Shown here in pieces: positions 13,674-41,189 of a stretch of DNA of 64,000 nucleotides. Origin of the DNA: Thelephora terrestris (Eukaryota; Basidiomycota; Agaricomycetes; Thelephorales; Thelephoraceae); NCBI GenBank assembly GCA_015956445.1, contig WIUZ02000004.1, positions 1,922,001-1,986,000 on the forward strand. The letters are read 5' to 3'. The stretch's first letter is position 1, and every line of letters starts with the position of its first letter. The translations under genes and the position numbers were made by a program. Under the pieces are notes generated by a model. It searched no databases. It was not told where the DNA came from and worked only from the letters and a program-made list of their open reading frames with translations.

Positions 13674-14875
13674 TTATGCGGTGGCAGCAACATCAGCAGC
13701 GGTGGTGGAAGGAGTGGGAGAAGGATCTGGATCTGAGGTGTCTGGAGCGGTGAGGAACTTGGAGTAAGCGCTCTCCCATGCCCTCTTGGCGTCGGTCTCA
13801 ATGGCGTCCTATGAAAATTAATCGATCAGCGGACTGAGGGCTTTCCCTGAACGCAGTGTACACTGACCCCATGGCAAGGAATTATGCGCTCAAAGTCCCA
13901 TTCGTTAACAGCCTTGGCGTCTTTGGCCATAGCGCTGAAGAGAGAGAGGGGAGAAACACCAAGGGATCGGTTTTACACAATGAACGGGAAACGAGTACGA
14001 AAAAGCACGCACGCCTTGTCCTTGCTCTCGCCCCATATGAAGTTCTTGTGGAACTCGGTGTAAGGGTTGAGCTTCTTGGTGAAGAGACCGGTCTTGCGCT
14101 GCTTGGACTTTGAGTATTGTTCAGTGGCGGGTAAGTTGAAGATCAAGTCGGCGACGATGAGCGTCTTTGAGGACTTGTGGAACCAGGCGACGTCCTTCTT
14201 GCTGAAACCAGAGAAGTAGACGGCTTCGATCTGTGTTTGGATCATCAGGAACGTGTTAGTGTCCGCTCACGACCAGGGGTCAAGGGTGCTCACATCATCT
14301 TCAAAGCCAAATTCGTTGTCGGAATCACGCTTGTAGACTGAGTGTGGCGGGTGAGGAACGTCAATTTGGTGCATCACGATTGCGTACCCTCATCGAACTT
14401 CCAGTACTCTCCCTTCTTCTTCTCAGGCAGAGTCTCGACCCCAATCATCTTCGCGTCAGGGTAGTTCTTCTTCCAATCGGCTATTTACAAAAGGGCCGAT
14501 CCATATATCAGCCGTGGTGTCCGTCGTACACACGCAAAGGAGTGGGGGGGAAGATCCACTCACTCAAGAAGTAATGGTGATCAGCATCCGCAGCCACAAT
14601 ATATTTCACCATTCCGAGCTTCTCAACAGCGGTCTTGGTCTCGTTGCTGTACGGAGTCGAGGCAACGACCCAAACGTCACCCGAGGAGAGCTTTATGGCG
14701 GTCGAGCGACCCCCCATTGGGAAAAACCCGAGGAATTTGGAGAACGGCCTGGAGAAGGTGACCACATCCGGGGTGATCTACGTCGTGTGTGTGGGGGAGG
14801 GTCACCCAAAGTGAGCTTCGGTCCCCAACATCAGAAGAACGGGGTAAGCACCTCTCGTATAACGATATCAGCCAT
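13674..14875 (-). CDS. DUF4336 protein (metallo-beta-lactamase-like fold), cytosolic-type paralog
   Basis: The start at 14875 gives MADIVIRE, spliced to ITPDVVTFSRPFSKF, then MGGRSTAIKLSSGDVWVVAS, YIVAADADHHYFL, and ADWKKNYPDAKMIGVE. Later exons give SGFSKKDVAWFHKSSKTLIV, ADLIFNLPATEQYSK, and WDFERIIPCHG followed by DAIETDAKRAW and a Pro/Thr-rich tail ending AAATA-like residues at 13674. The DHH and PCHGD positions resemble metal ligands of metallo-beta-lactamase-fold proteins. The biochemical role of DUF4336 is unknown. It has about seven introns. A paralog at 56915-58428 has the same block order but a long mitochondrial-type presequence; this one has none, so it is probably cytosolic. Confidence 0.82.
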
Positions 14876-15619: not shown

Positions 15620-16672
15620 TCAGGCGAGTTTGATACCTGGGGCTTGGGGGTTCCACAACGTGTTCAGCGATTGGCTCAAGAAGCTCGGGTCGTTGCTCTC
15701 GGCCTCGCGGTCAAAGTAGTGTTCTGGAAGGGAGGAGAGAGGTCAGGTCAGCGTGGGTGTTCCAAAAACTCGAATCCACAAGGAGGGCACGAACCATCGT
15801 CGTAGAAAGAGTAGAGCCATTTGGGGGTCGGTCCGAGGTAATCAGAATCTTCTTCATCCCAGTCATCTCCGTCTTCAACGGAGGTCCCAATGAGTTGCTT
15901 CAGAGCGAGGGAGAGGTGGGCATGAAACGGTAATGCGGATTCATCTTTAGTCCCGTCATCATATCTGGAGGGATGGAGTGTCAGATATATGAAGGGAAGC
16001 GAGCGCGGTCGGTCGTATTCCGCATACCTGTGGTCATCATAGAAGTCAACGTATTCATCTAGACCTCCATGATCCTCCCATATCTCGCAAGAGTCCGAAT
16101 CACAATCGCCGCTGCTCGAGTCTTCCGTGATCGGCGGAGTGCAGCTGCTTGCGTCGTCATCGTCATTGACGAGGGATCCCAGCGAGGAAGAACTGAATTG
16201 AGTGCGATAGAAACCATCAAAGTGGAACGGAGGGGAATAAGCGCCATCTCTCTGCATGTCGTTGGTGGTGAACGAGGGTGGGGAAAAGATGTCAACATGC
16301 TGTTTATATTATGAGTCTACTCTGCAGCTCGGTAGATAGAGGTCACACATACCTCAGCATTCTCGGTATCATAGCCATAGTCAAGGTCCGGGGAGTGGGA
16401 AACGAAGTCGAGTGCGGGGTAATTCTCGAGGCAGGCACTTGTATCCAACAACGTGCAAGTATGCTGTAGGGGTCGGTTAGGGTTGAACTAGCGAGGGAGA
16501 AGAGAGATAAGAGACTCGCCTGCCCGGACTTCTTGAGTTTCTTGCCACACGTGTCGCATGTTGGACGACCATGGAAGGTGCCATAGTGGGTAGCCAACGC
16601 GCTCTCAGAGCAGAACCTACGACGACAGGTGCTGTGGCTGCAATAAAGATAATCACCAGAACCGAATGCCAT
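15620..16672 (-). CDS. Small C2H2 zinc-finger protein with acidic tail
   Basis: The start at 16672 gives MAFGSGDYLYCSHSTCRRRF. The first finger fits CX4CX12HX4H (second Cys ...RRRFCSESALATHYGTFH). A second CXXC (CDTCGKKLKKSGQ) is followed by an intron and a His-containing exon. The rest is low-complexity and acidic: SSSSLGSLVNDDDDASS, a Ser/Asp-rich run, then WKLYSF-like aromatic segments, ending NTLWNPQAPGIKLA. It has no RING. The CX4CX12HX4H spacing and the intron directly after the second finger's Cys half match the neighbouring RING-containing family (17206-28509), so it may be a related member without RING. A cellular role cannot be assigned. Confidence 0.75.
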
Positions 16673-17205
16673 TGCGCATGCCCCAAGGGAACAACGTCCA
16701 AATGAGAGAGAGGGACCCTATCATGTCGCCACGACACCGCTCGGCTTTTATATCCGAATTTGCCCCAAAGGAACTCCATCAAGCGCGCTTGCACTTGTCT
16801 CAATGAGGACCCAAACGGTTACAGGCCCCTTGTCACCTTCCCAATCCAGTCGACGTTCTGAATCCTGATGGTCTTCGTATCAACTCAGCCGCCTCGAGGC
16901 TGTCCTATACTTTCCCCTTCGCCATTCCCCAACGGCTTCGCGTTTTTGTAGCACAAACACGCAAGGTCGCCACAATACTTGCGCAGTTGCCCCTTTAGGC
17001 ACACGCGGCCACGATCAGTAAACTCGTCTCATACTTTAGGCACGGACAGGGGCTCGTGATCAATTTCTCTCAAGCTCTGCCACGACAACGTTAGCCACCA
17101 AAACATTTGTCACACCTGATGATGAATTTGAAACCCCATGCTCCAACCAATGGAATGTTCCCGAAGGAATCCTTTGGGCGCTTGACCTATATATCTACCG
17201 CACCC
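16673..17205. other. Intergenic region
   Basis: This is the promoter region of the C2H2 gene and the 3' flank of C2H2-RING gene A. No coding signal was seen. Confidence 0.5.
16745..16755 (-). promoter_or_regulatory. TATA-like box of the 15620-16672 C2H2 gene
   Basis: The minus strand reads GGATATAAAAG about 75 bp upstream of the ATG at 16672. Confidence 0.4.
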
Positions 17206-19280
17206 TCACGATGCCAGGTCTAACTTGAACAAACAATAAAGAGCCAGAACGTTCTTGCAGACTGGACACCTCGATTCCTCCAAAACCACTGGGGCTATAC
17301 ACCTCCCTCGAGTCAGTCTCATTGTTACCCAAAAGCGGCAGGCGAGGATCCGCTTACTCGTAGCAGAACAAGTGCCCGCAGAGCGTTGCGGTCAGATTTG
17401 TGGCTGGCGTTGGGTCCGAGAGACAGATCCTACACTCAAAGTGTACCTCTGGCGAACCCAGTTTAGATCTTTTTGATCTATGGGTCCGCTGCGGATCATC
17501 ATCATGGGATAGATCGCCTGACCACGGGATCGATTTGAGTGGTCACAGGTCAGGTTTCGGAGGTGGGCAATCATCACAAAACGCCGCGAACGAACCTCGA
17601 TTTGTATTTCGCCCTTCATCTCGCGAGCTGAAGGATGTGGAGGCTGGAGAACCGGATCTGACCTCTCCGTAACGCTCCAAGTTCGCGGGCGACGGCGTTG
17701 CCCCAACAAGCCCATTCTGCCTTTGGACCTTCGGCTCGTCCCGCGAATGATCCCTAGTCACAATGGCACTCCTTAAGGTGAGAGTTCAATGGTATAGAAT
17801 CAGAGTTTCGCCATCCCACGTACAGGGTGCGACCCTCCCGTACCCCGAGTTTCGGAACACGAGGCGGGTCCGTGATGTCTCCGCCCTTCCGGGGAGACCT
17901 TCCATTCCGCTGGCACGCCCTAAGTTAGCATTGAATGACCTCCAATCAGGTGCGTGGCCTCACAAGTCTTGATGAGAGCGATGGGCGTTCATCTATGTCG
18001 TAGTCCTCTTCAGGCTCGTCCGCTCCGAGAGAGGATACCGTTATCGCCGGAGACCAAACATCCGAGGCGATTTCATAGGTCACCTCATCCCGACTCCGGC
18101 GTGGCTTTGGGTCAATCTCAACCAGAAGGTTCAAGGTTGGTCCGCTGGGAGATAAGAGGTCACGCTCATCAAAGGAAGCAGTTTTGACTTCCAAGTTGGT
18201 ATGATGAACAGGTTGCGATTTAGCCTAACGGTGATCGCTTGGACCCTGGCATAGAACAAAGATCTCTGAGACAGGCTTACCTTGGAAGTTGAGAATCCCG
18301 ACTGAATTCCAAGTCAGAATCTAATGAGGCGTTTTCTCGATTTACACACCTTATCGTCCGAGGGGGGCGAGGCGATCTTACCCTGTTTAACGCTTGACTT
18401 CAGCACCACCGAGGGAGGATTACTAATTACAGGATTCTGCACGGTCGGAAGACTGGAAGGAGACGGTTCGGGTTGGGTTACTACGCTTTGGGCCTTGAGC
18501 GGTGCGTGAGATTTTAGCCCACGTTAGCCATAGATTTCGTACCTTAGTGTTGGTATCATGATTGGCACCACTGCGTTGGTCGTTCATCTTCCCTGAACGG
18601 GATCGTCAAGGCCCAGACCACCACAAACAAAGTGAAGAGGCTTACCCTTGTTTGCAGGGGTCACAGCCCCCTTCCCCTTTGCGCCCGCGGTCGCGTGAAC
18701 TGCATTGAGATGCTATACAGTCGAGTAAATGAATGAGAGTGTGACGTGTCTCCGGGACACGGACCATTTGCCAGGCGAGTTCGTGTTGAAACGGAGGCAG
18801 CGCAGGACATTTCGTACATTTCCAGCTGTGGAACATCGCCTTATGCTATTTCTCCAGTCATGACAGTGGAGGCACAGCAAGAGAAGAATTTCCAAACCTG
18901 ATCCAAGGTATATGAAGTCATGAATCGGGTGAGGCAGTACTCGCATGTCAGTCCTGTCAGCGCTCTCTCGGAGTAGCTTGTTGGCTGGCTTCGGGTTCAG
19001 CTCTAGGCCTCCTGGCCAAAGGAAAGAATTGTACCCTCACAGTGTGCGCTGGCTCATTCTGCGTCTGGACCCGAGGTTCTTGCGCCACCGGAGGTTGGGC
19101 TTGCGCACTCGGCGCTTGCTTGAGTGAATTGCGATGTTTGTCGCGGACATGCTGAAGCAGGGGGTCAGCAAACTCTCTCGTAAACGTGAGAAAACCACTC
19201 GCCTGTTGCAGATGCGGGATTGAGGCAAAAGAATGGTCGCAAGCGTCGCAGGGGACGGGTCCTTTGTTCTTCTTACCCAT
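17206..19280 (-). CDS. C2H2-RING paralog A
   Basis: The start at 19280 gives MGKKNKGPVPCDACDHSFAS. The first finger is CDACDHSFASIPHLQQ then, after an intron, HVRDKH. Two more split fingers follow: CEYCLTRFMTSYTLDQ/HKAMFH and CTKC...AWQM/HLNAVH, where each slash marks an intron. A long acidic/Ser-rich linker leads to a C-terminal C3HC4 RING: ECRICLSDP, TLCGHLFCYE, an intron, CIAPVVLEESRCPVC, then the family signature ALYCLFKLDLAS and the stop at 17206. All eight RING ligands are present. RING fingers of this type usually recruit E2 enzymes for ubiquitin transfer, so an E3 ligase is inferred. It is the first of five same-strand relatives. Some internal splice sites in the linker are unresolved. 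Confidence 0.75.
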
Positions 19281-19786
19281 AGTCGTGGCAAGCGAAAAAC
19301 AGGTGGCCGATGCGGGACACGTTGGGCGTTATGTATTATGAGGACCCTCATCCAAATAAATAACATGCAAGCGCTCTTGATGGTGTTGTATCCACGTTTT
19401 TGCCTTTCTGAGTGTCAGAATCATTCTAGATGGGATATTCCAAGTTCCAAGTGAAGAAAAGCGGCGTCGTAAGCAAAGCATTGTCCAGATCGAGACATCG
19501 AATTCAAAAATTCATCCAGTGAGTAGGAACCAAGGGTCAGTTCTTTGGATAGAAACAAGGACATCGCAGGGCACAGATTCGCAGGTGGGGGGAACTCGAG
19601 AGTAAAATTTTTGGATCAAAAGTCGAACTGATAATCGATGACACTACCGGTTCCGAGGGGACCGTGACTCTGGTCTGAAGGACTCGATCATGGGCAGGGA
19701 TCATACATACTCGTCGCGATGTACGGTACCGGTATTATGGACGCAAGAGGTGCTTAAATATTCCAAATGGAGTGTCCGCGGTAATA
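19281..19786. other. Intergenic region, duplicated with 22282-22724
   Basis: This is the promoter of gene A and the 3' flank of gene B. Blocks such as CTGAGTGTCAGAATCATTC (near 19409) and GACTCGATCATGGGCAGGGATCA (near 19680) recur between genes B and C (near 22514 and 22576). The B-C duplication therefore includes the flanks. Confidence 0.65.
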
Positions 19787-22281
19787 TTAGCACGATATAT
19801 CCGACTCAAAGATACGATCCACCAAAATGCTTGTATGACAGACAGGACATGCGGATGTGGAGGTGACCTTCGGGATGATACACCTGTAGTGAAGCGTAGA
19901 GCTTCAAACGGCGGCTTTTATTTTTCAAGGAAGGTGATCCACTTACTTATGGCAAAACAGGTGCCCACAGATAGTGGCCGTCGGCTGCGCTCCTACAGAT
20001 GGGGGTTTGGCGTAGATTCTACACCGGTACTGAGTGGCGATATCGGCAGCTATGTTCTCCCTGTCCAGTTTACTCGGGGCAAGGACTTGTCAGATGATTG
20101 CTCTCCAGACGGCTTGGCTTCTCCCTTTCCATTGAAACCAAGGGCGTCAGTCTCGGTGACTGCTTTTGGTGCACCCAGGGATGATTTATTCGGCTGGGCG
20201 CGCGAGGGTCAGCACACAATTTTCTACAACACCCGAACCCGTTCACCTTCTTCGGATGAAAAAATTTGTTGTGGGTGTTGAGGAACCCCTGAGTCGAGAA
20301 CCCTCGACCACAATCCATCTCCTGACAGTAGAATCGCTTCGGACGAATGATTCCCTATGATCACAACAGGGCGTGAGATCAAACCTCTGGCTGCCTCGTG
20401 TCCGAACTCACCTGGTCCTGGTCAGGATTTGTGATAAATGCTGTCTTCTGTTCAAGGAGGGTCAGTTTCACGAAGATCACGGAGGTCGTGGATGGAAGAG
20501 GATTACGAGGGCAAAAGCTGGCGATTTTGCTCCGTTGAGATTTGCGCAATTCGTTTCTTCACCGCCAGTGGTCAACGGCTTGCTGCTGGGTAAATTTGGC
20601 GGCGGCGGCGGAGGTCTATGGTCTTCGCATTCCCTCAGGATTGGAATGCGTGAAACCTGGATCATCTCTGCCTCTGTCTTGAATTTCTCTGCGAATTTAG
20701 CGCACAAGTAGGTTTCGTGTTCGCTATATTCATGCTTTCCGAGGTCATTAACATCACACCACCGTTGCAAAGCGGTGCACGCACAAGCCAAAGTTCCGCA
20801 GTCGATACGAATTTTTTGGCGCATTTAGGGCAGGGGAGGTTATGTTTCGCCTTGTAATGCTGGGCGTGTCGTCAGATTCGTCGACATTAGGGCACGATAA
20901 TGAGGGGTCGTACTTCGCTCCTTCCCTCTTCCGTTATGAAGATCTCGGAACAGTGGGCACAACGGAACCGATGGTAAACTTCACGGTGCTTAGAGAATTT
21001 TAGCGGGCGATCTGGATCACCCAATTAAAACGTATAGAGGCAAACCTGATCCATTACACTTTGTGTGGTGAAGCATTTGAAGCAGATGTTGCATTCAAAC
21101 CGGTGCCTAGCATTGTAGTGCTAGATTTCATGTCAGCACAAGGTCAGAGCATAGGGAGCGAAAAGCAACTGGCCTGATCCATCATAGCCCGCGTAGCGAA
21201 GTTAGCACCACACTGTTGGCATCTGAAGCGATGCTTCGCATCAAGGTGCTAAGTGGCCGTCAGCGAGGTCGCTGTTGAGGGGAGGGATCAAGAACCTTCT
21301 CCATCCCATGTTCCGTCCTGAATTCACGACCGCACTCGTGACACTGAATCACACGGTGTTCTTCATCGTAATGCTAAGTGTATGTGTGAAAATTCAAAGG
21401 AAAAAGCAATTGATAAAAACGGTGTTCACCTGAATCAATGCAGCCTGCGTCGTGAATTCGTTGGTGCACTCGGGGCATTCAAGGCGGTGTTTTGCGTTGT
21501 AGTGCTGGAATGGCGTCAGGAGACAGGCGTCAAGCTTGCAAACGGGCACGGACCTGATAAAACCCTTTCTCGGTCCTGAGCACGCGGCCACATTCAGGGC
21601 ATACGAAAGTGCAATGCTCTGCTTCATGGTGCTGAAGGGGGTATGTAAGGACGTTATCCATATCCGTGGGGTGAAAGTGAACCTGATTCATTGCAGCCCA
21701 CGTCGTGAACTCACTATCGCACACTGGGCATTCGAAACGGTGTGTGGCATCATAGTGCTGAGTAGCCTTAAGCAGGTGACCAATGGGGGGAAGAATGAAT
21801 ACGGACCTGAATCATCTCCCCCCGCGACCTGAATCCACAGCCGCATTCGGGACAATTCACCCAACGGTGAGCCACATCGTAGTGCTTGAAAATAAGATTG
21901 CATCAGCGCCTAGCCTGAGAGATCATCAAAATGGACGGACTTGATCCCGTGCGCTCTGCGTAGTATATACGTCATCGCATTTGGAACATTCAAACCAATG
22001 TTTTGCTCTGTAATGCTGCAGGAACTTAAGTGGAGGACTGCGGGATGGCAGGGAATGTAAACCGAGACCTGATACGCGGCATACTCCGATCCAAACTCGC
22101 GGGGGCACTCAGGCTCTGTGCAGCGGAAACAGCAATGTTTTGCCTGTATATGCTAATGCAACAAAATTAGCGAGTCGAGACACGTCAATCAGATAAGGAT
22201 AATCACAGCGCCCACCGCCTGCCAGGATCCAAAGGAATCTGAGCAAAAGTGACACTGGCAGTGTCCCCGGTTTACAGGCAT
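19390..22281. repeat. Tandem duplication unit B (C2H2-RING gene plus 3' flank)
   Basis: This unit aligns with 22500-25126 across 3' flank, RING exons, linker and the finger exons. It contains one finger exon more than unit C. Confidence 0.75.
19787..22281 (-). CDS. C2H2-RING paralog B (13-finger array, partly degenerate)
   Basis: The start at 22281 gives MPVNRGHCQCHFCSDSFGSW. Thirteen fingers follow with consensus CX2-4C-X3-F-X5-L-X2-H-X4-H. Each intron falls between the last Q/E of the Cys half and the first ligand His, for example CDSEFTTWAAMNQ/HHEAEH and CTNEFTTQAALIQ/HYDEEH. After a linker comes a CX4CX12HX4H finger (CGRGFSTQGFLNTHNKFFH), then RING exons ending CPVCHTSILVDRIF at 19787. 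Three defects are visible relative to gene C. The second RING Cys is Tyr (CRIY, codon at 20012-20014). The second Cys of finger 13 is Phe (20693-20695). One intron donor is GC rather than GT (21172-21173). It may be a decaying or altered copy; the frame is otherwise open. Confidence 0.72.
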
Positions 22282-22724
22282 TCGGCTTGGTCGAGGGTCA
22301 GATGGCGACGATTATCTTATGCGCGAGGTCGGGGACTTTAGGACCGCGTTATGACAGCTTGTAAAAGGTTTGGACCTCGTGGCAGAGGTGTGTAGTTTGA
22401 CCGCGACCTCGTGTGCCAGTGGACGACGATTGGAAGTTCAAGCCCAAGTCCGAGGCCTACGATCAAAGGCTAGAACACTTCTCTAGGGTGCTGCAGCCAC
22501 GTTTTTCCCCTTCTGAGTGCCAGAATCATTCAAGATTAATCGACGACACTACCGATTCCGAGGGGACGGTCTTAAGGACTCGATCATAGGCAGGGATCAC
22601 TGCACATACTCGTCGCGATGTAGTACGCGTACGGTACCGATATTAAGGATGCAAGAGCTGCTTAAATATTCCAGAAGTTCGTTGGATAAGACAGGCACTT
22701 ATAAGCCTCGTGTCCGCGGTAACC
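22282..22724. other. Intergenic region between C2H2-RING genes B and C
   Basis: This is the promoter of B and the 3' flank of C. The right part duplicates 19390-19760. No gene was seen. Confidence 0.6.
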
Positions 22725-25126
22725 TCAGCACGATATATCCAACTTGAAGATACGATCTGCCAAAATACTTGTATGACAGACAGGACATTCGGATGTGGAT
22801 GTAATCTTCGGCATGATACACCTGTAGCAAAGCGTATAAAGCTTCCGCCGGCGGCCTTTATGTCTCAGGAAAGGCGGTCCACTTACTTATAGCAAAAAAG
22901 GTGCCCACAGAAAGTGGCCGTCGGCTGCGCTCCTACAGATGGGCGTTTGTTGCAGATTCTACACCGGTACTGAGTTTCGATGTCAGTCAATATCTTCTTC
23001 TCATCCGGTTTACTTGAGGCAAGGGACTTGTCAGATAATGGTTCCACAGATGGCCTAACTTCTCCCTCTCCATTAATATCAAGGCCGTTACTCCCGGTGA
23101 CCGCTTTTTCCCTGTCGGAGGATGGCTTATTTTGCTGGGCGCGCGAGGGTCAGCAAATGATTTTCCACAATCCCCCGAACTTCGTTCACCTTCTTGGGAT
23201 GGAAAAATTTGGTGTGCGTAGCGAGGAACCCCTCAGTTGAGAATCCTCGACCACAGTCCTCCTCCTGACAGTAGAATCGATTCGAACGAGCGGTCCCCTG
23301 GGTTCCAAGACAGAGCGTGAGATCCGACCTCTGGCCGTTCCATACCCGAACTCACCTGGTCCTGGTCAGGATTTGTGTCGCACGTCGGCTTCTGTTCGTG
23401 GATGGTCAGTCTCACGTAGATCACAGGGGTCATGTTTAGAAGAGCATTACGAAGGCCGCCCCAGGTGGCGATTCTCCATCGCCGACCTTTGCATGGTTCA
23501 CTTTTCCGCTGCCCGTGTCCAACGGCCGGCTAATGGGTGGACTGGGTGGCGGTGGCGGTGGAGGTTTATGCCTCTCGTTAACGTGCTGGTGATAAAGGTC
23601 AAACTAATCATCCGTTCAGAATTGCTAGAATGCGAGAAACCTGATTCATCGCTGCATCTGTCTTGAACTTCTCCAAACATTTAGGGCATGGGTAGGTTTT
23701 GTGTTTTTCGTCTTCATGCTGTTAGAGTTCATTAACATCGCACCACCCTTGGAAAGTAAAGCCCGCACATGTCGAAGGTCCAGAGTTGATACGAATTTTT
23801 TGGCGCAGTTAGGGCAGGGGAAGTTATGCTTAGTATTGCAATGCTAGCCAAGTTATCAGACCCCGTCGACTTTACAGTGTCATGATGAGGGGTCACACCT
23901 TGCTTCTTGCTCCTTCCGTCATGAAGATCTCGGGGCAATGTGCGCAACGCAACCGATGGTAAGCTTCGCAATGCTTAGAAAAGATTAGCAGTAGATCCGG
24001 ACTACCCAGTCGCGAAATTAAGAAGCAAACCTGATTCAGCACGCTTTCTGTGGTGAAGTATTTGGAGCAGATAGTGCATTCAAACATGTGTTTAGCATTG
24101 TAGTGCTGAGATGCATGTCAGCACGATACCGGAGCATAGGGAGCCACAAGCAAAATGACCTGATCCACCCCAGCCTGCGTAACGAAGTTGGCTCCACACT
24201 GTGGGCATTTGAAGCGGTGCTTCGCATCAAAGCGCTAAATTCTCATCAGCGGGCATCTTAGTTCATGGAAGGGATCGAGAACCTGTTCCATCCCCGTTTC
24301 TGTCTTGAATTCACGGTCGCACTCGGGACACTCTATCATACGATGTTCATCGTTGTGATGCTAATGGTACGCGTAAAAACTCGAGTCATGATGTATTCAA
24401 GAAAGATGATGAGTACCTTGTTCAAAGCGGCCTGCGTTGTGAATTCATCATCACACTCGGAGCATTCGAAGCGGTGTTTTGTGTCGTAGTGCTGGAAGGG
24501 CGTCAGGAAGGTGGGCGCCAAGCCCAGGAACGGGCACGGACCTGGTCCATCGCTTCTTCGGTCCTGAACTCGCGATCACATTCAGGGCATTCGAAAGCGC
24601 GATGCTTCACTTTATGATGCTGGAAGGACATGTGAGGGCGTAATCGAAATCTATGGGTGTAAGCTAACCGTTTCCATTCCAGCTCGCGTCTGAAACACAC
24701 GATCACACACTGGGCATTCAAAACGGTGGTTCTCATTATAGTGCTGAGAAACTGTCAGTAGGCGACCGATGGCGGGAAGGACGAACGCGAACGCTATCTC
24801 GTGCATTCTCCGTCCAAAATTCATCGTCGCATTCGGAACATTCAAAGCAGTGCTTTGCTTTGTAGTGCTAAAGGACCTTCAGCGGGGGATTGCGGCTGGT
24901 AGGAAATGTAGTCAGAGACCTGATCCATGGCACCTTCCGACATAAACTCGCGGCTGCATGCTGAGCAGCGGAAAACGCCATGTTTTGCTCGGGCATGCTG
25001 ATGCGACGAAATCAGCGAGTCGAGACGTGGCAATAGCAAAAATGTAAGTACAGAGTACACCGCCGCCCACGATCCAAAAGAATCTGAGCAATGGTTGCAT
25101 TCGCAGGATCCCCTGTTTATAGGCAT
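22500..25126. repeat. Tandem duplication unit C (C2H2-RING gene plus 3' flank)
   Basis: Partner of 19390-22281. The RING exon, the final CX4C finger, the spacer and most finger exons align one to one. Confidence 0.75.
22725..25126 (-). CDS. C2H2-RING paralog C (12-finger array, intact RING)
   Basis: The start at 25126 gives MPINRGSCECNHCSDSFGSW. About twelve array fingers follow, nearly every one split by a phase-0 intron just before its first His, for example CSECDDEFTTQAALNK/HHNDEH and CPECDREFRTEEAMDQ/HYDTKH. Linkers between the last His and the next Cys are only 3-4 residues (HRFEC, HRAFEC). One His is replaced by Arg (24232-24234). After a His/Pro-rich low-complexity spacer comes a YCQEEDCGRGFSTEGF finger, then the RING: CRICNKRP, TFCGHLFCYK, an intron, and CPVCHTSILADRIFKLDISC. 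All RING zinc ligands are intact. This is the best-preserved multi-finger member. An E3 ligase with a finger-based recognition array is inferred; its targets are unknown. Confidence 0.75.
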
Positions 25127-25388
25127 TCAACTCCGTTGAGCGACAGGCGGGGGCCAGTGATTTCGATGCGCGGGGTTGGAAGATTTCAAATCTCGCAATG
25201 ACAGGCCCACCAAAATTTCGGACCTCGTGACGGGGGTGGCTAGACCTCGTGTGGTGGACCCACGGCGCCTTGGTATCAAAAGAATCTAAACGACGATCGG
25301 AGGTTTTGAACATTCAAGCAAGGCCTCAGATGAAATCCGGAACACTACGAACATGCTACATCATCATTTTCTCACAGAATTTGGATGC

Positions 25389-26924
25389 CTAGGGTAACAC
25401 TGGGAGATCGAGTTTGAACAAACAATACAGCAAGAGGGCACCGTCGCACACGGGACATCTGGGAGTCGACGTCACGTGTTGGGTGATGCACCTAGGGTAG
25501 GGTGAGTCTAGAAGCCAATTTGCTCAGGATTCTCGAGGCATACTCATAGCAGAAAACATGGCCACACATCGTGGCGGTCGGTCGCATACAGACGGTCGGA
25601 GGTGCATCGCACATCCTGCATCTGAAAGAAAGAGGCGATGAGGTGGTTACCGCTGGTGGTGCGCTGACTTCGCCGGGGGTTGTCGCCGAGCTTCCGAATG
25701 CGCCCTGAACGCTCATTCCCGCACTCGAGGGGATAACTTGATGCCCTTCTTGTGGCAGGGTGAGTGCAGGAGCTTCAGCAGGACTAGGTGTGTGTAGAAG
25801 GTCATGCAACGTGTATTCTCCAGATTCGGAGGAGCCGACGGTTGATGTCGAGTGCGCAGGGGAGGTTTTCACGGATTCTTCCGCCTCCTCAGGGATGTTC
25901 TTTGGGGATGGGTTGGCTCCTTCCTCCCCTGCTGTCGTCTGGGCGGGCTTTGAATTGCGCCTCAGTTTTTCACTAACCGAAAGAAATTCTATCACCAACC
26001 TTCGTTTGATGGAAAAATCTCGTGTGAGACTCGAGGTGTGCCTCGGATGAGAAACCCCTTCCACAATCGTGCTCTTGGCAGTAGAATCGTCCAAGTGTCA
26101 GATTGTGTGTGGAGCCCGTGGCCGAGTCTTCGTGAGTTTGGACGGGACCGCTGGTCCAGGTGCTGGGGTACACCCCTTCTCCGGGAACCCGGAGGGAATT
26201 AGCAGCTAAAGATCCCGCCAGGCTACCGTTGCGTGGAGATTGGGGTGCTGCTTGGTTAGCAGCTTCAACACTGCTGTTTGTGTTACCGTGATTTTTCCGA
26301 ACATGCTAGATAGGATAGTTAGCTGTGGAAAACTGAAATAGAATTTTACACCACATTGGAAAGCTTCTTGACTTTGACGGCGGCAGAACATATTGGGCAC
26401 TGACTAGCGGATGAGCGGGGTATCACTGCCAAGGTCATAGGAGGCACACTCAAACCTATTTCACATTGTCATTGGTTCAAAGAGAAGAAGCACACTAAAA
26501 TTCACCTTCGAAGTGGGAGTGTGAACTGCTTTCACATGCTGCGGCCGCGTTCAGAAAGTGTTCGATGATCCACCGGTCTCGTTACCTTTTTCTTCTCGGC
26601 TTTGGTTCGAAACGCGGGAATAGGACACCTCCCGCAAGCCCATGTCTTTGGGGGCTAAGGAATGCATTGTTATTAAGTTTCTCTTGCAAAATGATAGTAA
26701 CCCCGGACCTTTGTCACCTGTGGGACAACGGCGCCCGGTGAGAGAATTATCAGGGATTCGGTGCAGCTGGGGTGCTTCTTGCGAAGATGCTATCGAGTAG
26801 TCACATCAGATGCCACACCCAGCCTAGATTTTGAGTCTCAGTCACTCGCCGTCTCAGCACCTTTCAAGTTCACATAAGTTTTGCCGCAAGCGGGGCAGAC
26901 CTTGTTTCTCAGTGAGGTTTCCAT
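25389..26924 (-). CDS. C2H2-RING paralog D
   Basis: The most plausible start, at 26924, gives METSLRNKVCPACGKTYVNL. Split fingers follow: CGRCPIPAFRTKAEKKK/HVKAVH and CPICSAAVKVKKL...V/HVRKNH, with introns before the His. A Pro/Ser/Thr-rich linker precedes YCQEHDCGRGFSSEAH (CX4CX12HX4H), then an acidic linker (QTTAGEEGANPSPKN). The RING is RCRMCDAPPTVC, TMCGHVFCYE, an intron, CITQHVTSTPRCPVC, and the signature LLLYCLFKLDLPVLP ending at 25389. All RING ligands are present. It has few fingers and lacks the B/C array, like gene A. The exon between the first and second fingers (about 26700-26860) is not fully resolved. Closest to E in the RING and in the CX4C finger. Confidence 0.7.
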
Positions 26925-27275
26925 GTGATGAAGAGTGTGGCTGGTGGGCAAAGCGTAGTGGGCGCGTGGGCGAGCGATCCGGAAATTCTGATTGTCGGGC
27001 ACCCATATTGCTCACACATTCGCGTGTTCCCACTCTCTCCCCGCCAATAATGTCTATTACATGGTGGGTACGTTGACAATCCGTGCATTTAATAAAAACA
27101 ATACAGGCGGTCCGCAACACACGAAAAGATAGTCGTGGTTGCATGGACTGGCGTAGAGGACAGGATTTGAGGCAAAGTCCGAAACGTCATGGGGATGGGC
27201 GGCAATTTTATCTTGCCGACTGTACACTCATGTACGGCGGACCAAGATAAATCGTATTGTTACGAAGAACACACT
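26925..27275. other. Intergenic region between C2H2-RING genes D and E
   Basis: This is the promoter of D and the 3' flank of E. The minus-strand frame starting at 27144 (MQPRLSFRVLRTACIVF...) contains CTDC but no convincing finger. It is left unassigned. Confidence 0.45.
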
Positions 27276-28509
27276 CTAAGTCATTCCCGAAAGATCGAGT
27301 TTGAATAGACAATACAACAAGAGGGAATTATTGCACACAGGACATCGGGATGTGGATGACACATGTTGCGCGATACACCTGACGGGAAGTAAGCATTAAT
27401 ATCCAGCACTTCAGCTTTTGTTACTTGGTATTTTTGTCACATACTCGAGACAGAAGAGGTGGCCACATGTGGTGACCGTAGGTTGTGTCGTGACCGTGGG
27501 AGGTGAATCGCACATCCTACAATGCAGGGGGAGGATACCTGTGACAGGTTGTGCTGCCTTGGGTTGCGTATCGGCAGCATCTTGGATTGAAGGTGAGGAT
27601 ACATTAGCGATTTCAGGGGGTTTCGCGGCATCCTCTTCCATTGAGTTGGTGCCCTGACATTCACCCCTGAAATCGGACAAGCTAGCTCCGGAAGGGGGAC
27701 GCAGGTCATGTTTGTTCGCTCGTTCCTCCACTTGAGATAGAGCGATCGTTGTGGTTGACGGATAGTATAGCTCAGGAGGGCGAAGCCCTTCGGATCGTTC
27801 CGCCACTCCTTTCGACGAAGAGGGAGCTTCTCGTTCCCCCACGGTCTGTTTAGGCATCTGGAGGTCGACATAGCTTACGGTAAGGGGAGTGTAATTATGT
27901 GACATGCGCTCACCCATTTCGAGTGGAAAAATCTCACGTGGGATTCAAGATGCGCCGCTGACGAGAAGCCCCTTCCACAATCGTGTTCCTGACAGTAGAC
28001 ACGCCCCGATGTAGCTTCGTTTATGTTGCAGAGAGCAGTATCGTTGGCAGAGTAGCGCCTCTCCTTCGACGATATCAGCTCTCAGCAGGAAAGTCGTAGC
28101 ATGCAACCCACAGACGACAGTTCCGCTGCACCGTCGGTGTGAGGCGCGGATACTGTCAAGGGGCCGGTTTTAGCGACTGCATCTGGTATGCCGTGCACCT
28201 TTTCAAGGTGCTGCCAGGGGGAAGGGTCAGATAAGGAACAACGTCAACGACGTTGGGGCTACCCTTGCGAGGTGTCGTTGTGACACCGTTGCACGACACA
28301 TCGTGCATTTACCACGTCCCAACAACGATGCTCCAGACGCATTCCTCGCCTGGGGCGCAGCTGAAGTGTGAACTTGTTTCCTATGCTGCGTTGACGATTT
28401 AGTGATCGTAACTGGCGCTAGAGAAGTGGAGGATCACCTTTTTCAACGCCTTATTGGAAGCAAAGGGAGATAAATCTGGACACAGTTCGCAAAACTTTCG
28501 GCATTGCCG
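27276..28509 (-). CDS. C2H2-RING paralog E, 5' end unresolved
   Basis: The 3' part is clear: YCQEHDCGRGFSSAAHLESH (CX4C finger), an acidic/Pro linker, RING HCRMCDSPPTV, TTCGHLFCLE, an intron, CIAQHVSSTSRCPVC, and LLLYCLFKLDLSGMT with the stop at 27276. Upstream are two split fingers, CELCPDLSPFASNKALKK/HRKQVH and CTMCRATVSQRHLA/HLEKVH. The exon starting HLEKVHGIPDAVAKTG does not join the next exon in frame with any convincing intron near 28050-28110, so there may be an unrecognised intron or a frame lesion. The first exon (ATG) was not found; 28509 is only an acceptor-defined boundary. RING ligands are all present. Treat the 5' half as provisional. Confidence 0.55.
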
Positions 28510-30554
28510 CTAGGACGCACACTCTCAAAAAATTATGGATTTTATGCTCAATAGTCCCCAAACCTTTGGTAGCGTTCGGGACAGCCTCTTCTCCATTGGT
28601 GCCGTTATCATGTTGAATTGTCTCTTGTTGCCGATAGGGATAATGTCACGTGAAGGGAAGTTTCCTGTGCCCATTCCCCGTATCATTGCCAGGGCCAGCG
28701 TCTTGTCGCCCTCTGGTTCTGCACGGGTCTCTGCAGTGTCATGGCGCAGGGCGAGTCGCCCTGCAACGGGTACTGCCTGAAAGCACATCAATAATGACTG
28801 TGGATCCTGCATCTGGCTACACACATTTGCGCCTGTGGCAAACTTGGGAACTAGACGTACCCATGCATCGATCAGCCTAAGCACATGCGCGAATGACATG
28901 ATTTTGTTGTTGCGTACCGGTCAAACTTGCGCGCTTTAGCGATAGCAGCGAATTCATATCGCGTAGGGCACGCAGCCAAAAGACAGGTCGCCGACCAGAT
29001 CCTGAGTCTCAGCTACGCACTTATCGAGCAACGTTTCTTGATATGCGGGGTTGGGCGCAAACGGAGGTCAGTCTGTTTTCTCCGATCTTATCGTCTAGGT
29101 TTCAAGGGTGATGAGTGTGGCGGACAAAGTCTGGCGTCAATCCTCTTCGGCTACACTTTGTGCCGTAGACGCCCTGCAATTATGTCATCCCGACGACAGT
29201 GCATGCCGTTGAATGGGGGTATCGACATACAGCGAGAACGGATTGTAGGTGTAGGAAGTGAATCACGAACATGGGTGGAAAGTGGTACGCCCAGAATGCG
29301 CGAAGAAACGCCTAAATCCAGCCTAATTAGAGCAACACCTTTGGCGCGTCACCAGCATATTAACGCCGCTGAGTCACCCCTACTTACAGATGCAAGGATG
29401 TCGAACACGGGCGGATAAATTGATAGACGACAGCAACCTCCCCATGCCCCTGAAGGCGAGAAACAGACTGACCATAGTTCTGGCCTATCGGAGATGGCCC
29501 TACATTGATTCGAATGAGCATTTCCCGTCACACTGGCGTGAGTGATGGAAAAGCGGCAAGTATGTGATTTAGAATGCACCTTAAGTTTGAACAAGTTGTG
29601 TGCCTATCACCATCTAAGGTAGAGTGGGTGGCTGCTTGATTCAAGGTGCATTCGCTTCGAGTATCCAGGACTGGCTGTGAAAAAGAGCCGAAATCCTGCC
29701 CATGCGAATCCCTGTGGACCCTTGAAAGATGGGTAACGTTCGCGTACTCCGCACACCACCCCTTCAGTCCTACTGGAACCCTGGATTTTCGGCGAGTTAT
29801 GAGCGTGTGTGGAGGCAGCCGAGACATTTCCACACTTTGTCACTGTACGATGCGCCGTATCCTGAAAGTTTGGAGTCGATGCTAGCTTGCCAACCACTGA
29901 TGGAGCCCGTTCACCTGTGGGGACTGCATTGGGGGCTGTCTGGGGGAATTGTTTCGTAGGGAACTTGCACTCGCCCACCTCACATCGATATTCATCAGGA
30001 CGGGCGGTGTTGATATCCTTCATGCGCTTGAGCCGTAACTTCACGGTTAGAAATTCGGGATGGTGGAAAATATTCCATTAGCCATAACTCGCAATCCTGC
30101 GAGAGAAACTTGCGGAGAACTTGAAAAACGGACATTAGTTCCATAAATTTTCTCCAAATACGAAAGTCGCAGGAAAACAGGCCCGTTTCCAACGGCTGGC
30201 TAAGGTTGGGCTCTTTTTATCCTTTCGTGCCTTCCGTGTTCTCGGCCGCAGGGTTAAGGAATCGTTTAGGACACAGGGGTCTTTGGCGACCTAGGGGTGT
30301 TTCCATGACTGACGATTTCTTCAGACGGGGCAAGAAAGTAGCAGCAGTTTGATTCAAGACACGTGGGAGTTAGACACTTGAAAGATCGCGTAATGGGTCG
30401 AGAGTGGGCTGCAACCTGGGCGGACGCATTACGACGGCTTGAAGAGACTTTTGACGCCGATACATGTGGCCGATCACTCGAAACTCGCCTTCCGTCACCA
30501 CGCCACTCGATTGACCCTCATCCCGCCTTTCAGTCCCAGGTGGGCACTCTCGCG
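28510..30554. other. Unassigned 2-kb zone between C2H2-RING gene E and HIR1
   Basis: This should contain the 5' exon(s) of E and the HIR1 promoter. Minus-strand frames at 28525-28899 and 29607-30044 are open. The second contains EYRCEVGECKFPTKQF, which looks like the Cys half of a CX4C finger of this family, but no RING or clear His halves were found. It may be a remnant of a sixth family member. Confidence 0.35.
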
Positions 30555-36299: not shown

Positions 36300-39200
36300 T
36301 CACGCGCGGTTTCGCCCAATCGCAACCATCCCTGCAGCCCCCTCCACCTGAGGCAACGGCTGCCCTGAGCTTGACATGGGCTGTGGGAGAAATCCGACTT
36401 GAACAAGCCACGCCAAATACAACCCCATAACCTCTTCCGTTACCGACACCCCAGTCTCAACAGGCACCGACTCCAACAACGCCCGGGTGTTCCTATCATC
36501 CAATTCAGGTGCCTTGGTACTCGTCGGTAGGTCGTCCAGGACAAAATGAAGCAGAGGAAACAGCGCATTGTCCTGAACCTCCATGACGTGTCGCTCTAGT
36601 TTCCTCCTCCAATCCAGATACCCGCACTGCTCCACCTGATAGCCATATCGAGCCAGCGACAAGAACATGTTGTTGAACGTCAATCTCGGTTTTGCCGTAA
36701 TATGCAACACCGACATGGCGCAGTTCTTGCGCAGATGACCTAGAGCTGCTAACGCTGCGCATCGGGCAACATGATCTACAGGGACCATATTGACTGTGTT
36801 GTTGATGTTCGGTACCAGTCCCAGTTGAACGCATCCTTTTATCAAACGCCAGATAAAATCATCCGTATTCGTCACTAGCCGGGACGCCACGATCAGTCAT
36901 CCTCGAAACAAGTCATGAACCCACGCCCGGCTCACCTGCAGATTTGGAATCCCCAACCACATATCCAGGGCGTACAATGTGCCCTCTCAGTCCTCTCCTC
37001 CCAGCCTCAAACAGCAGCTTCTCTGAGACCCACTTTGACTGACCGTAGCCTGACTTCAAACCGTGCCTTGCTCCCTCCAGGTCGTCGTCCTCAGGGACTC
37101 CCAACAACCCGTCTGGATCGTTTAGCATAGAATCAGACAGTTGTACATAATGTGGAGTATCCAGGGCGGACGTTGAGGAGACGAAGACAAAGAGCTTCTG
37201 CCTGCCAGCAGATGCCAGTTCTATACCCGTCAATGTGGCGAGGACGTTTGCTGGTCGTAGTTTTTCATATGGATATACCCAATGGACCTGAGCGTAAAAA
37301 AGTCAGTGCATCGCTCTCATGTATAGATCGTCACCCACAAAGGCGCCGTTATGTAGGATCGCGTCTACTTCATTGGCGACCTTGTCCCAAATCGCGGCAG
37401 AAAGCCCAAACCGCGCCTGGTCAAGATCACCGCACAGAACCTCCAATCTCGATGACTCAACCCATTGTTCGTCCCAAATCCCCCTTCCGGTCGAGCTTTG
37501 CCGTAATCTCTCCGTAGCCTTCTCCTGGCTGCCGTCTCGAACAAGGCAGAAGACTTTCGACACTTGCTCACTTTGAAGGAGATCTTTGAGCACAAAAGCT
37601 CCTAGAAATCCGGTGGCGCCAGTAAGGAAAACTCTGAACTTCTGTGTGCCGAAGTCGTCCGGCAATGGGGAATATGACTCCTTCAACTGCTGCTTCAGAG
37701 ACTCGAAATCTGTGCCATATTCCTCAGCACGTTTAGCAACCCCCGCGGTCGGAACGCCAGGCGCCTTGTAATCCAGCCCAAGATCGGCATTCTTGAGGAC
37801 ATCGACCTGTGCTGCTTGGTCTGCTACTGTAGGATGGTCGAATACCAGTCCTAGTGGCGCCTCGATGATGAAGGTCTTTCGGATTTCGAAGATCAGACGC
37901 GTCGCAAGGATCGAATGGCCACCAAGATCAAAGAAGCTTTCATCGAGTGGAATTGGATCGGGAGCATTGGGAAGGATGGTCCCCCATATCGCTCGGATAG
38001 TTGCTTCGGTTGGATTGACCGCCTGTGTACCTGCACGTCTGGACTCGATGGACGCTGCCTGAACGGTATCAGGGAACGGCAGTGAGGGTTTGTCGATTTT
38101 TCCATTGGGGTTCAATGGCATCCGCTTCAAGGGGACAAAAACTATATGGCGACAAGGCAGGGGGCCAGGATCAGATACTTTGATTTCATAAGAGATCGGA
38201 ACTGAGCACATACGAGATGGAATGCTGTAACTGGGTAGCTTCTTCTTCAGATGTTCGCGGACGTCTTTGATCAACCGCTTGTATTTCCGAATTCCACCAG
38301 CAACGCCTTTATCTTCGTCTCCAGAAATTGTGTCGCTCTCGAAACCTGCCAAGTCTGGAGCCTCCAAGGGTACGAAATAACTAACGAGTATCTTTTCTTC
38401 GTCCTTGTCCCTCCTTACGAGCGTGACGTTCTCTCGGATGAGAGGATGCTGGCTCAGTAGCGTATCGATCTCTCCCAGCTCGATGCGGAACCCCCGGATC
38501 TTGACTTGATCGTCGGCTCTGCCGGCGCACTCAACGGATCCATTGGGCATGTAGCGTCCTAGGTCTCCAGAGCGATACATTCTGTCTCGAATCCCCTTCC
38601 AGTGGCGAGCGGCGGGTGGGGCATGTCCTTCCTTCGGATGCAGCATCGTGTCCTGTCGAGGTGTGTTCGAAGCACTGAACCAGTTCTGAACGAATTTCTG
38701 CAGGGTGGCATCGGTATCCGAATAACCTTCCGCCAACCCCCCCGATCGCACGTAGATCTCCCCGACTTCACCGACCCCACAGAGAACGCTCTTGTCAAGT
38801 CGGTTCACAACTAAGAGTTGGACGTCTATCATTCCAGATCCGGCTGGCATGACATCTTTTTGAGTAGAAAGGAAGGTGAGATCATCGGAAACGCAAGGGA
38901 TCTCCATGTATGAGACCGCGCGCTGAGTCTCTGTGGTACCGTACATGTTGATGATGCGAACGTTCTGAGCAAGGGCTTGTAGACGGAGGCAGTCCCTCTT
39001 GGTCAAGACATCACCGACGAAGAACGCGTTGCGAAGAGTAGGGATTTGCGCCGTAGCTTGTGCGGAGAGTAATTGACCCATAGCCGGCGTGAGGTGAGTA
39101 ACCGTGACCTGATGCTCGGCCATCCACTCGGCGAGCCTGCCAGGCGTGCCAATATCCTCCGGGGTCGGGACATAGAGTTGGGCTCCAAAGAACAGAGGTG

Positions 39201-40847
39201 TGAAGACTGGGAACAATCAGACTTCAGTGAATGAGTTAGAGGTGGGCAGTGAGGCGCTCACTGTCTCGCTGAATTGGGTCGTGAGCAATTCCACTGAGCA
39301 TCGTAAACCTGGAGTGTTCCCCAATCTCGAAACGTTGCCCCATCCATGGGAAGAAGTGGGTCAGGGAATAGTGCCGGCCCTTGACGCCTTTGGGAACACC
39401 CGTACTTCCGCTCGTGAACGATAGTGTACCTATGCTATCCGGTCCGATTATTACGTTGGGATCGATCTCGGCCAGATGAATCTGCGGCGCAAGAACATCG
39501 ACTGAACCCTCGTCTATGCTGCCGCCCATGACCTCGCCGTTCCGAAGGAGTTGTAGAGCGGGAACTTCGACCCTGATGCCCAATTCGGAATTGATGAACT
39601 CGCGAACGGTGGAGTTGATTTTTCCAGCTCCCTTGAGGACAATGAGTGCTCGGGGTTGGGCAACCCCGAGGTAGATGGTTTGTCGAGAAGGGGGATAAGC
39701 AGGATCTGTATCAGCAAATATCAGTATTCAATTCCCGTCCCCGATATTCAATTGCAATACCAATCACTGAGAACGTCGCGCCGGTCTTCAAGGTAGCCAG
39801 GATGGCAGCCACTAGTTCCACGCTTCTGTGCGCGTATATCATCACAACTTCTTCCCGTTGGACACCATGTGTTAACAGGTGATGGGCCAAGATATTCGCT
39901 GCGCGCCAGATGGCGCCATAAGTGTAGGTGAGAGGGTGGGAGAGTTCGTCTCCAGGAGTCTGGACGACGCACGGCCGGTCTGGGAACTTTGATGCATTTT
40001 GAGAGAAGATGTCCGTAATAGCCCCCTTCCAGTCACACCAATTGAGGTCCGCGGTGGGGTCGGGGAGCCTTTCTTTTTGTGAGTCCGTGAGTAAAGGAAC
40101 AGACCCAATCGGTGACAATGGTTTGGAAGCCACCCGACGTAAGAACGAGGAGAGCTGGTCAACGATCACAGCAATACGGGTCTGCGTAAACAACAACGAA
40201 TTGTAGAGGATTTTGAGAGTAATATGGGGGGCAAGGGATGCGCGCGACGTAGTGGTCGCACGAGTGACGAAGACGGTAAGATCTGATGTTGAACTTGTCG
40301 ATCGGATGAAATTGTCCTTCGCAGGGTCAGTCCCATCGAAGAATCTGACGCGGAAGAGAGGCTTTTCGTCGCGGTCCTTGGCCAGAGCTTTGACGATTGT
40401 CTCGTAGGGGAGGACGTCAGCCTCGGCGTCTCTCTCGACTTGTTGGACCTTTCGCACGATAGCCCAGAAGGGATCTGATGGATCTACAGAGAGGCGGAGT
40501 AGGAGAGGATCATGGGCAACAGCGGAAGAGGAGCCGATGATTATATCTTGATCTCCAGTGTATCGATGAAGCAAAACAGTGAATGCCGCCAAGAGGAGGT
40601 GGAAGACGGATGGGGTTTCGGGGACGGAATCGCTCTTGTCGTCGTCGACGTCGTCATCATCAAAAAGTGCCAGCTTTAGCAATCCGCGGGATGTTTGTTC
40701 GGGGAGTTCCCCAATGTGTGCGGCCTCAACGAGCTTGTTCCCGACGGTCGGTCTGGGGTAATCAGTCGGAAGGGATATCAACGGAACATTTTGTAGCCTC
40801 TCCACGACCCGGCGGAGGCGTGCTTCTTCGTCGTCCATGGTGTCCAA
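36300..40847 (-). CDS. LYS2: L-alpha-aminoadipate-semialdehyde dehydrogenase (alpha-aminoadipate reductase)
   Basis: This large enzyme of fungal lysine biosynthesis activates alpha-aminoadipate with ATP, holds it on a phosphopantetheine arm and reduces it with NADPH. Domains in order: an N-terminal condensation-like region (to about residue 270); an adenylation domain with GTLSFTSGSTGVPKGVKGRH, NMYGTTETQRAVSYMEIP, RMYRSGDLGRYMPNGSVEC and NPNGKIDKP; a carrier domain with LGGHSILATRL (phosphopantetheine Ser); and a reductase domain with FLTGATGFLGAFVL (NADP Rossmann) and GYGQSKWVSEKLL (Y-x3-K catalytic pair). It is about 1,430 residues, normal for the family, with about five introns. A second ATG at 40838 is an alternative start. 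No truncation seen. It needs activation by a phosphopantetheinyl transferase (LYS5), not present here. Confidence 0.95.
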
Positions 40848-41189
40848 GTGAGAGGGTGGGCGCCGGGAGAAAAATTATTTGACTCGCGAGAATCGGGACG
40901 GATTTTGACTCGTGCGACTGACGTAGGGTGTTCGTGGTGTGTTGATACCAAACCCTAGGGGGGAAATGCTGGAGGAAATGCTTAGGACATTACGATTGAA
41001 ACCGTAGTCGAGCACAGGAGTGACTGTGGTCTTCCTGAATATTTGGGGTCAAACTCAAGGAGTATCCGATTTGAGCCCCAACCTCAGAGTCAAAGGCCAC
41101 CTTGGCAGGTCACCTGATCCAACTTAGCCCATCAGATTCCGACGCGACGACGGTGATTATCATTATTGGACTCAAACTTCGCTTCCCCC
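40848..41189. other. Divergent promoter region of LYS2 (-) and RecQ (+)
   Basis: About 340 bp between divergent starts; no gene seen. A GAGTCA element (near 41087) could be a half-site for Gcn4-type regulators, but this is a weak match. Confidence 0.4.

Follow-up and report, generated by a model that had tools for sequence, protein, structure and literature searches.

A tandem cluster of C2H2 zinc-finger genes in Thelephora terrestris predicted to encode RING-type ubiquitin ligases with an exon-modular finger arm

Introduction

What kind of protein is encoded by a fungal gene cluster in which C2H2 zinc fingers are joined to a RING domain, and how does the finger arm of such a protein change? 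The question is raised by a locus in a 64-kb window of the Thelephora terrestris genome, the window being the whole stretch of DNA analysed here. An initial annotation, made from the sequence, described a same-strand array of C2H2 genes, five of them fused to a C-terminal RING, and read it as a rapidly remodelled family of putative E3 ligases whose recognition fingers vary as in an arms race. As an observation this proved largely right and was confirmed in part, and the interpretation is partly supported. We propose that the locus holds a family under birth-and-death evolution, in which duplication, the loss of modules and decay have shaped RING-type ubiquitin E3 ligases, each a single chain with an exon-modular finger arm; we give this reading a probability of roughly 0.55.

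Results

Six related genes lie in tandem on the minus strand

The tandem, single-strand layout was borne out by six related genes, A to F, which all lie on the minus strand at 15.6-28.5 kb of the window. Their exon boundaries were set manually, guided by splice signals and reading frame, and were checked with a splice-scoring script that had been trained on the same models, and for that reason the check is not independent of them. Gene C (22725..25126) is predicted to have 17 exons encoding 511 amino acids, comprising 12 array fingers, a proline-rich linker, a finger of the CX4C type, a C3HC4 RING and the tail ILADRIFKLDISC; exons 1-12 hold the first finger halves and exons 2-13 the histidines. 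The script returned the same 17 exons for C at a penalty of -7 and merged exons 1 and 2 at -10. Gene B (19787..22281) has 13 array finger exons, of which the last encodes a damaged finger, followed by a CX4C finger and a decayed RING region that is out of frame; its exons 5 and 6 were merged by the script at both penalties. Gene A (17206..19280) encodes three split C2H2-like fingers, a long linker, a C3HC4 RING and the tail ALYCLFKLDLAS in a model taken from the splice-scoring script, in which the exon structure of the linker is uncertain and the first two exons are merged, with loss of the first intron, at a penalty of -10.

Gene D (25389..26924), modelled by hand, has three split fingers, a CX4C finger, a RING and the tail LLLYCLFKLDLPVLP; the script gave it 5' splice sites that differ from those of the hand model, and these sites are uncertain. 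For gene E (27276..28509) the script model was preferred over the hand model and contains two split fingers, a CX4C finger, a RING and the tail LLLYCLFKLDLSGMT. The 5' end of E is uncertain, as is its start codon (the top-scoring ATG is at 28674), and its first finger exon is not recognisable. Gene F (15620..16672), whose exon list was put together by hand and is in frame, has one CX4C finger, one atypical split finger and an acidic tail without a RING; it matched zero Pfam families at E<=1 and is possibly a distant member of the cluster. The predicted models of A, C and D are open from ATG through stop.

The predicted models contain 60 introns with a median length of 54 bases, 56 of them GT-AG and four GC-AG, although at least one gene A intron is doubtful; the gene structure of the window is eukaryotic, and such short introns fit a basidiomycete. 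The GC-AG introns are the first finger introns of A, D and F (19202, 26849 and 16519), all three at the first split finger and before its histidine, and intron 9 of B (21173).

Four genes carry a readable C-terminal RING

RING domains had been assigned to five genes, A to E. A readable RING was found in A, C, D and E; the frame of B meets a TAG before the RING, leaving four such genes and not five. The four segments were recognised as RINGs in a Pfam search, each reaching at least one cut-off: A matched zf-RING_2 at 35.2 bits (cut-off 27.3), E matched zf-RING_5 at 30.6 bits (cut-off 27.9), C matched zf-C3HC4_2 at 27.2 (cut-off 27) and D reached a single cut-off, that of zf-C3HC4, at 21.0 bits as printed (cut-off 21). 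The RINGs of C and D passed narrowly and failed other RING models. In an alignment, the eight zinc ligands of the C3HC4 type are invariant among A, C, D and E, and a profile of the four RINGs matches RNF4, Pex10, TRAF6, COP1 and TRIM21 among the 28 PDB sequences listed. A phase-2 intron splits the RING at one shared codon in all five models from A to E, and the C-terminal LYCLFKLDL signature described initially is present in A, D and E and altered in C.

The RING dN/dS could be computed for six of ten gene pairs and lay at 0.11-0.23 in five of them (D/E 0.11, C/E 0.15, A/C 0.23), values read at a dS of 1.5-2.8, near saturation; for the sixth pair, B/C, in which the B copy is broken, it was 0.56. 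Together, the Pfam matches, the eight ligands, the PDB profile matches and the low dN/dS support from sequence the assignment of these proteins as putative E3 ligases. A basic linchpin residue after the last zinc cysteine favours RING E3 activity, though not universally. The residue at this position is lysine in A only, with asparagine in E, aspartate in D and histidine in C, and the RING activity of D and E may be weak because of the aspartate and asparagine.

Fingers of B and C are built one per exon

That the N-terminal fingers are interrupted by introns was also upheld. Across the six models, 33 introns fall immediately 5' of the codon for the first histidine position in a finger (A 3, B 12, C 12, D 3, E 2, F 1), one of the C codons being the arginine that replaces the first histidine of finger 7; an automatic tally gave 34 by counting a further F intron that precedes a CAT outside any finger. 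The array exons of B and C measure 75, 78 or 84 bases, are in phase 0 at both ends and hold one finger's worth of sequence each. From exon 2 on, each opens with the codon of the preceding finger's first zinc histidine, the exception being the last array exon of B, which reads on through a damaged intron. As the phase-0 intron precedes the first histidine, each such exon joins the back half of one finger to the front half of the finger that follows, and the gain, deletion or skipping of an exon would alter the arm by one entire finger with the reading frame kept.

Scanning the window with a strict finger-exon pattern gave 21 minus-strand matches, all within B and C. The plus strand gave none, nor did any of 20 single 64-kb strands simulated with a first-order Markov model. 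Tandem Repeats Finder reported no array. Pfam C2H2 cut-offs were passed strongly by the B and C arrays only (zf-C2H2 E 6.7e-30 in B, zf-C2H2_4 E 2.7e-30 in C), which consist of tandem CX2CX12HX3-5H fingers. The fingers of A, D and E fall below these cut-offs, and several of them have 11, 13 or 14 residues where those of B and C have 12; finger assignment in these three genes and in F is accordingly by motif, intron position and likeness to the paralogues. The CX4CX12HX4H finger that had been noted in at least four members is present and conserved in B, C, D and E and was not seen in A.

Linkers between the array fingers of B and C are three to four residues long; an automatic count printed 0 for three fingers in which a cysteine directly follows the histidine, and these read as 3 or 4. 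Helix position -1 is serine or threonine in 25 of 25 fingers, and the combination of long TGEKP-like linkers with varied contact residues is absent from the B and C arrays. The top PDB matches of the array are the DNA-binding proteins ZNF568, Aart, CTCF and TFIIIA, whose longer linkers appear as gaps in the alignments.

One finger module separates the tandem duplicates B and C

BLASTN self-comparison showed that B and C are head-to-tail duplicates. One unit (19382..22301) holds B and its flank, with about 200 bases at 19432-19631 unmatched, and the other (22487..25146) holds C and its flank; the units align at 74% and 72% identity in their two long matching pieces, and at 86% in a 50-base piece. 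Aligning the two genes revealed a gap of exactly 134 bases, which corresponds to one intron-plus-exon module of B (21807..21940, minus strand; intron 3 of 56 bases and finger exon 4 of 78 bases) that is absent from C with the frame kept. Intron comparison agrees with this placement, as the partner of C intron 3 is B intron 4 (z 5.8), while B intron 3 gives no match to it (z 0.2). Seven of the nine later pairs, from C4/B5 to C12/B13, are clearly shifted by one (z 5.2-8.8). C intron 6 scores 1.5 against B7 and 1.1 against B6, and C12/B13 are without a match (z 0.2) because in B the damaged stretch stands in the place of C intron 12.

Of the 11 orthologous pairs, 10 group in an unrooted tree of the fingers (support 77-100), B7/C6 failing to do so, and finger B4 joins B8/C7 (support 78) from outside that pair (77). 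The position of B4 outside the pair mildly favours a loss in C. The description of the array as remodelled is supported for this one finger-module event, together with the decay of B.

Most 100-column bins of the B/C alignment have an identity of 0.68-0.79, with values of 0.85 for the CX4C exon and 0.56 for a nine-site bin at the module gap. Identity rises to 0.83-0.92 over a tract of coding and non-coding sequence (19632..20049, minus strand) that takes in the RING-coding exons and the intron between them as well as the 3' flank, and since the high identity spans all of these, a later exchange of sequence between the two copies over this region is likely.

Gene B is decaying

Exon 16 of B (19947..20193, minus strand) is 247 bases long versus 248 in C, and the resulting frameshift leads to a TAG before the RING. 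Beyond this, RING ligand 2 is tyrosine, with loss of the zinc cysteine; the second cysteine of the last array finger is phenylalanine; and a 31-base deletion has removed the intron acceptor and first histidine codon of that finger. Gene B is decaying and does not encode a fused RING. Even if the one-base difference in exon 16 were a sequencing mistake, decay would still be indicated by the lost cysteines together with the 31-base deletion. The B exon at 20734-20507 (minus strand), which carries the last array finger, is an in-frame read-through of a stretch that is an intron in C.

Fingers of B and C are under net purifying selection

With B exon 4 omitted from the exon pairing, the B/C finger dN/dS was 0.354 by NG86 (298 codon pairs, bootstrap 0.25-0.51) and 0.59-0.60 by LWL85, YN00 and maximum likelihood, all five overall estimates lying below 1; the fingers of this pair are under net purifying selection. 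Zinc ligands are unchanged at 43 of 46 sites, with one of the three changes due solely to a two-residue insert in B exon 2. At helix positions -1, 3 and 6 we counted changes at 13 of 36 sites versus 39 of 84 other non-core positions (Fisher p 0.32). All 13 fall at +3 and +6 (13/24) and none at -1, and among the 25 fingers -1, +3 and +6 have the lowest entropies of the non-core positions, while helix +2 is variable (entropy 2.85). Grouping -1, 2, 3 and 6 as a DNA-contact class gave a dN/dS of 0.86, the top value of the classes computed, from few sites. The comparison is of low power because it rests on a single paralogue pair of which one member, B, is decaying.

Discussion

A cluster of predicted modular RING ligases

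In the reading we prefer, the C-terminal C3HC4 RING would recruit an E2 and the hydrophobic tail past the CPVC motif may aid RING pairing, while the N-terminal C2H2 arm would hold the substrate and a long linker, usually with the CX4C finger, would join arm to RING. Because of the short linkers and the constant helix -1, the arm more probably binds RNA or another protein than DNA of a specific sequence. Each array finger of B and C is, in the predicted models, split by a phase-0 intron just 5' of its first zinc histidine, and exon skipping may offer a route to an altered arm. A stronger version, in which the locus is a cassette system that gains symmetric phase-0 finger exons, loses them when copies recombine or skips them in splicing, and so yields from one locus many substrate arms that differ in finger number on a common RING, is one we consider distinctly improbable.

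The suggestion that the fingers are arms-race products holds that the fingers diversify by positive selection to keep pace with nucleic acid of foreign or transposon origin, the RING acting as effector. The paralogues do differ in finger number, the tandem cluster includes a decayed copy, the contact class has the highest dN/dS, and once the invariant -1 is set aside the changes at +3 and +6 (13/24) slightly exceed those elsewhere (39/84), with +2 variable as well. Against this, no overall dN/dS estimate reaches 1, helix -1 is serine or threonine throughout, changes at -1, 3 and 6 show no excess, and these three positions have the lowest entropies outside the finger core. Vertebrate poly-zinc-finger expansions, by comparison, show positive selection at -1, 3 and 6 in the sections consulted of PMC2604467; a dN/dS above 1 at these positions was not found in the one pair compared here. 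The variable-finger claim was consequently not borne out, and we hold an arms race to be quite unlikely. Were the proteins instead regulators that bind specific DNA sequences, with a RING that causes the turnover of chromatin or transcription factors where they bind, the strong C2H2 matches of B and C and the DNA-binding nature of the best PDB matches would be accounted for, but the three- to four-residue linkers, shorter than those of the matched DNA binders, and the near-constant helix -1 make this reading unlikely.

Kinship with ZNF598/Hel2, with a changed domain order and fingers that bind ribosome or RNA, would fit the rarity in human of a RING and C2H2 fingers in a single chain (PMC5504347, in part), the short linkers, and the matches of B and C to zf-C2H2_jaz, which is described as dsRNA-binding. 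It sits poorly with the C-terminal RING, the 12-13-finger arrays and the multigene cluster. ZNF598-specific Pfam models exist, and no ZNF598-named model is among the matches listed at E<=1, up to 25 families in the case of C. We regard this kinship as very unlikely. Finally, the locus could be mostly a relic, its duplicates drifting to loss with no current family function; to the four lesions of B may be added the arginine in place of the first histidine in finger 7 of C and the unrecognisable first finger exon of E. The open models of A, C and D, RING and finger dN/dS values below 1 and the mostly retained zinc ligands speak against it, and we judge it highly improbable.

Known systems and searches for relatives

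The modular ligases proposed here belong to a RING type that is already known; their finger-per-exon construction is less so. RNF4, TRAF6, COP1 and TRIM21-type ligases share the sequence class of the RING and differ from the cluster in their substrate-binding parts. The nearest named RING plus C2H2 protein is ZNF598/Hel2, which like the cluster combines a RING with several C2H2 fingers in one protein. Its RING is N-terminal, however, whereas that of A, C, D and E is C-terminal, and unlike ZNF598/Hel2 the locus consists of clustered genes with arrays of as many as 13 fingers, at one finger per exon. A contribution to sensing the state of the mRNA or ribosome has been proposed for the ZNF598 fingers, and ZNF598 and three others are named as human single-chain proteins with both domains (PMC5504347, sections consulted).

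Vertebrate KRAB/poly-C2H2 clusters share with this locus a tandem layout, varying finger number, duplication and loss, but carry a repressor domain where the cluster carries a RING. Seven human genes at 8q24.3 have their fingers all within a single exon (PMC2865497, sections consulted), in contrast to about one finger per exon here. If the exon-per-finger layout is general in the family, it would give fungi a simple, frame-safe way to remodel the arm with which a ubiquitin ligase recognises its target and would be a counterpart to the vertebrate zinc-finger clusters whose studied fingers share one exon.

Some mushroom proteins may be annotated with RING and C2H2 domains. RING proteins are among the orthogroups specific to complex multicellular fungi, and the consulted sections of the same paper, which treat mushroom RING, F-box and BTB ubiquitination families, do not mention a C2H2-RING fusion or an exon-modular array (PMC8893723). 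A 30-species survey of Basidiomycota reports dispersed and tandem duplication of Agaricomycotina C2H2 genes, in the sections consulted, and its main text nowhere uses RING or ubiquitin as a whole word (PMC12295980). No description of a fungal C2H2-RING family was found in the freely accessible literature searched. Pattern searches of viral contigs gave 60 matches to the RING tail, 36 to the whole RING and 40 to the CX4C finger, and a search of prokaryote genomes with the whole RING alignment gave 71, none of them confirmed by tblastn; these collections, being viral and prokaryotic, are uninformative on fungi, and the results are not evidence of novelty. NCBIfam gave matches below cut-offs only, to prokaryotic zinc-finger models and rad18.

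Surroundings of the cluster

A Pfam scan of ten long open reading frames in the window identified a serine hydroxymethyltransferase at 3.3-3.9 kb and Ysc84 at 62.9 kb. It also placed WD40 repeats from 30.3 kb onwards, in a region that the CAF1B/HIR1 and THOC3 models match with scores short of the cut-offs. Three open reading frames at 36300-40874 (minus strand) hold NRPS-like condensation, AMP-binding (adenylation), carrier and NAD_binding_4 reductase domains and are probably one intron-bearing gene. No Rfam families or tRNAs were found in the window, and the open reading frames at 28525-28920 and 29607-30077 had no Pfam match at E<=0.001. The latter, on the minus strand upstream of E, contains a CX4C-like stretch, YRCEVGECKFPTKQF, and is a possible relic or unmodelled relative. 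BLASTN also detected an inverted repeat pair (13861-13953 and 58223-58312) of about 93 bases and 77% identity, its copies 44 kb apart, which is possibly a small mobile element.
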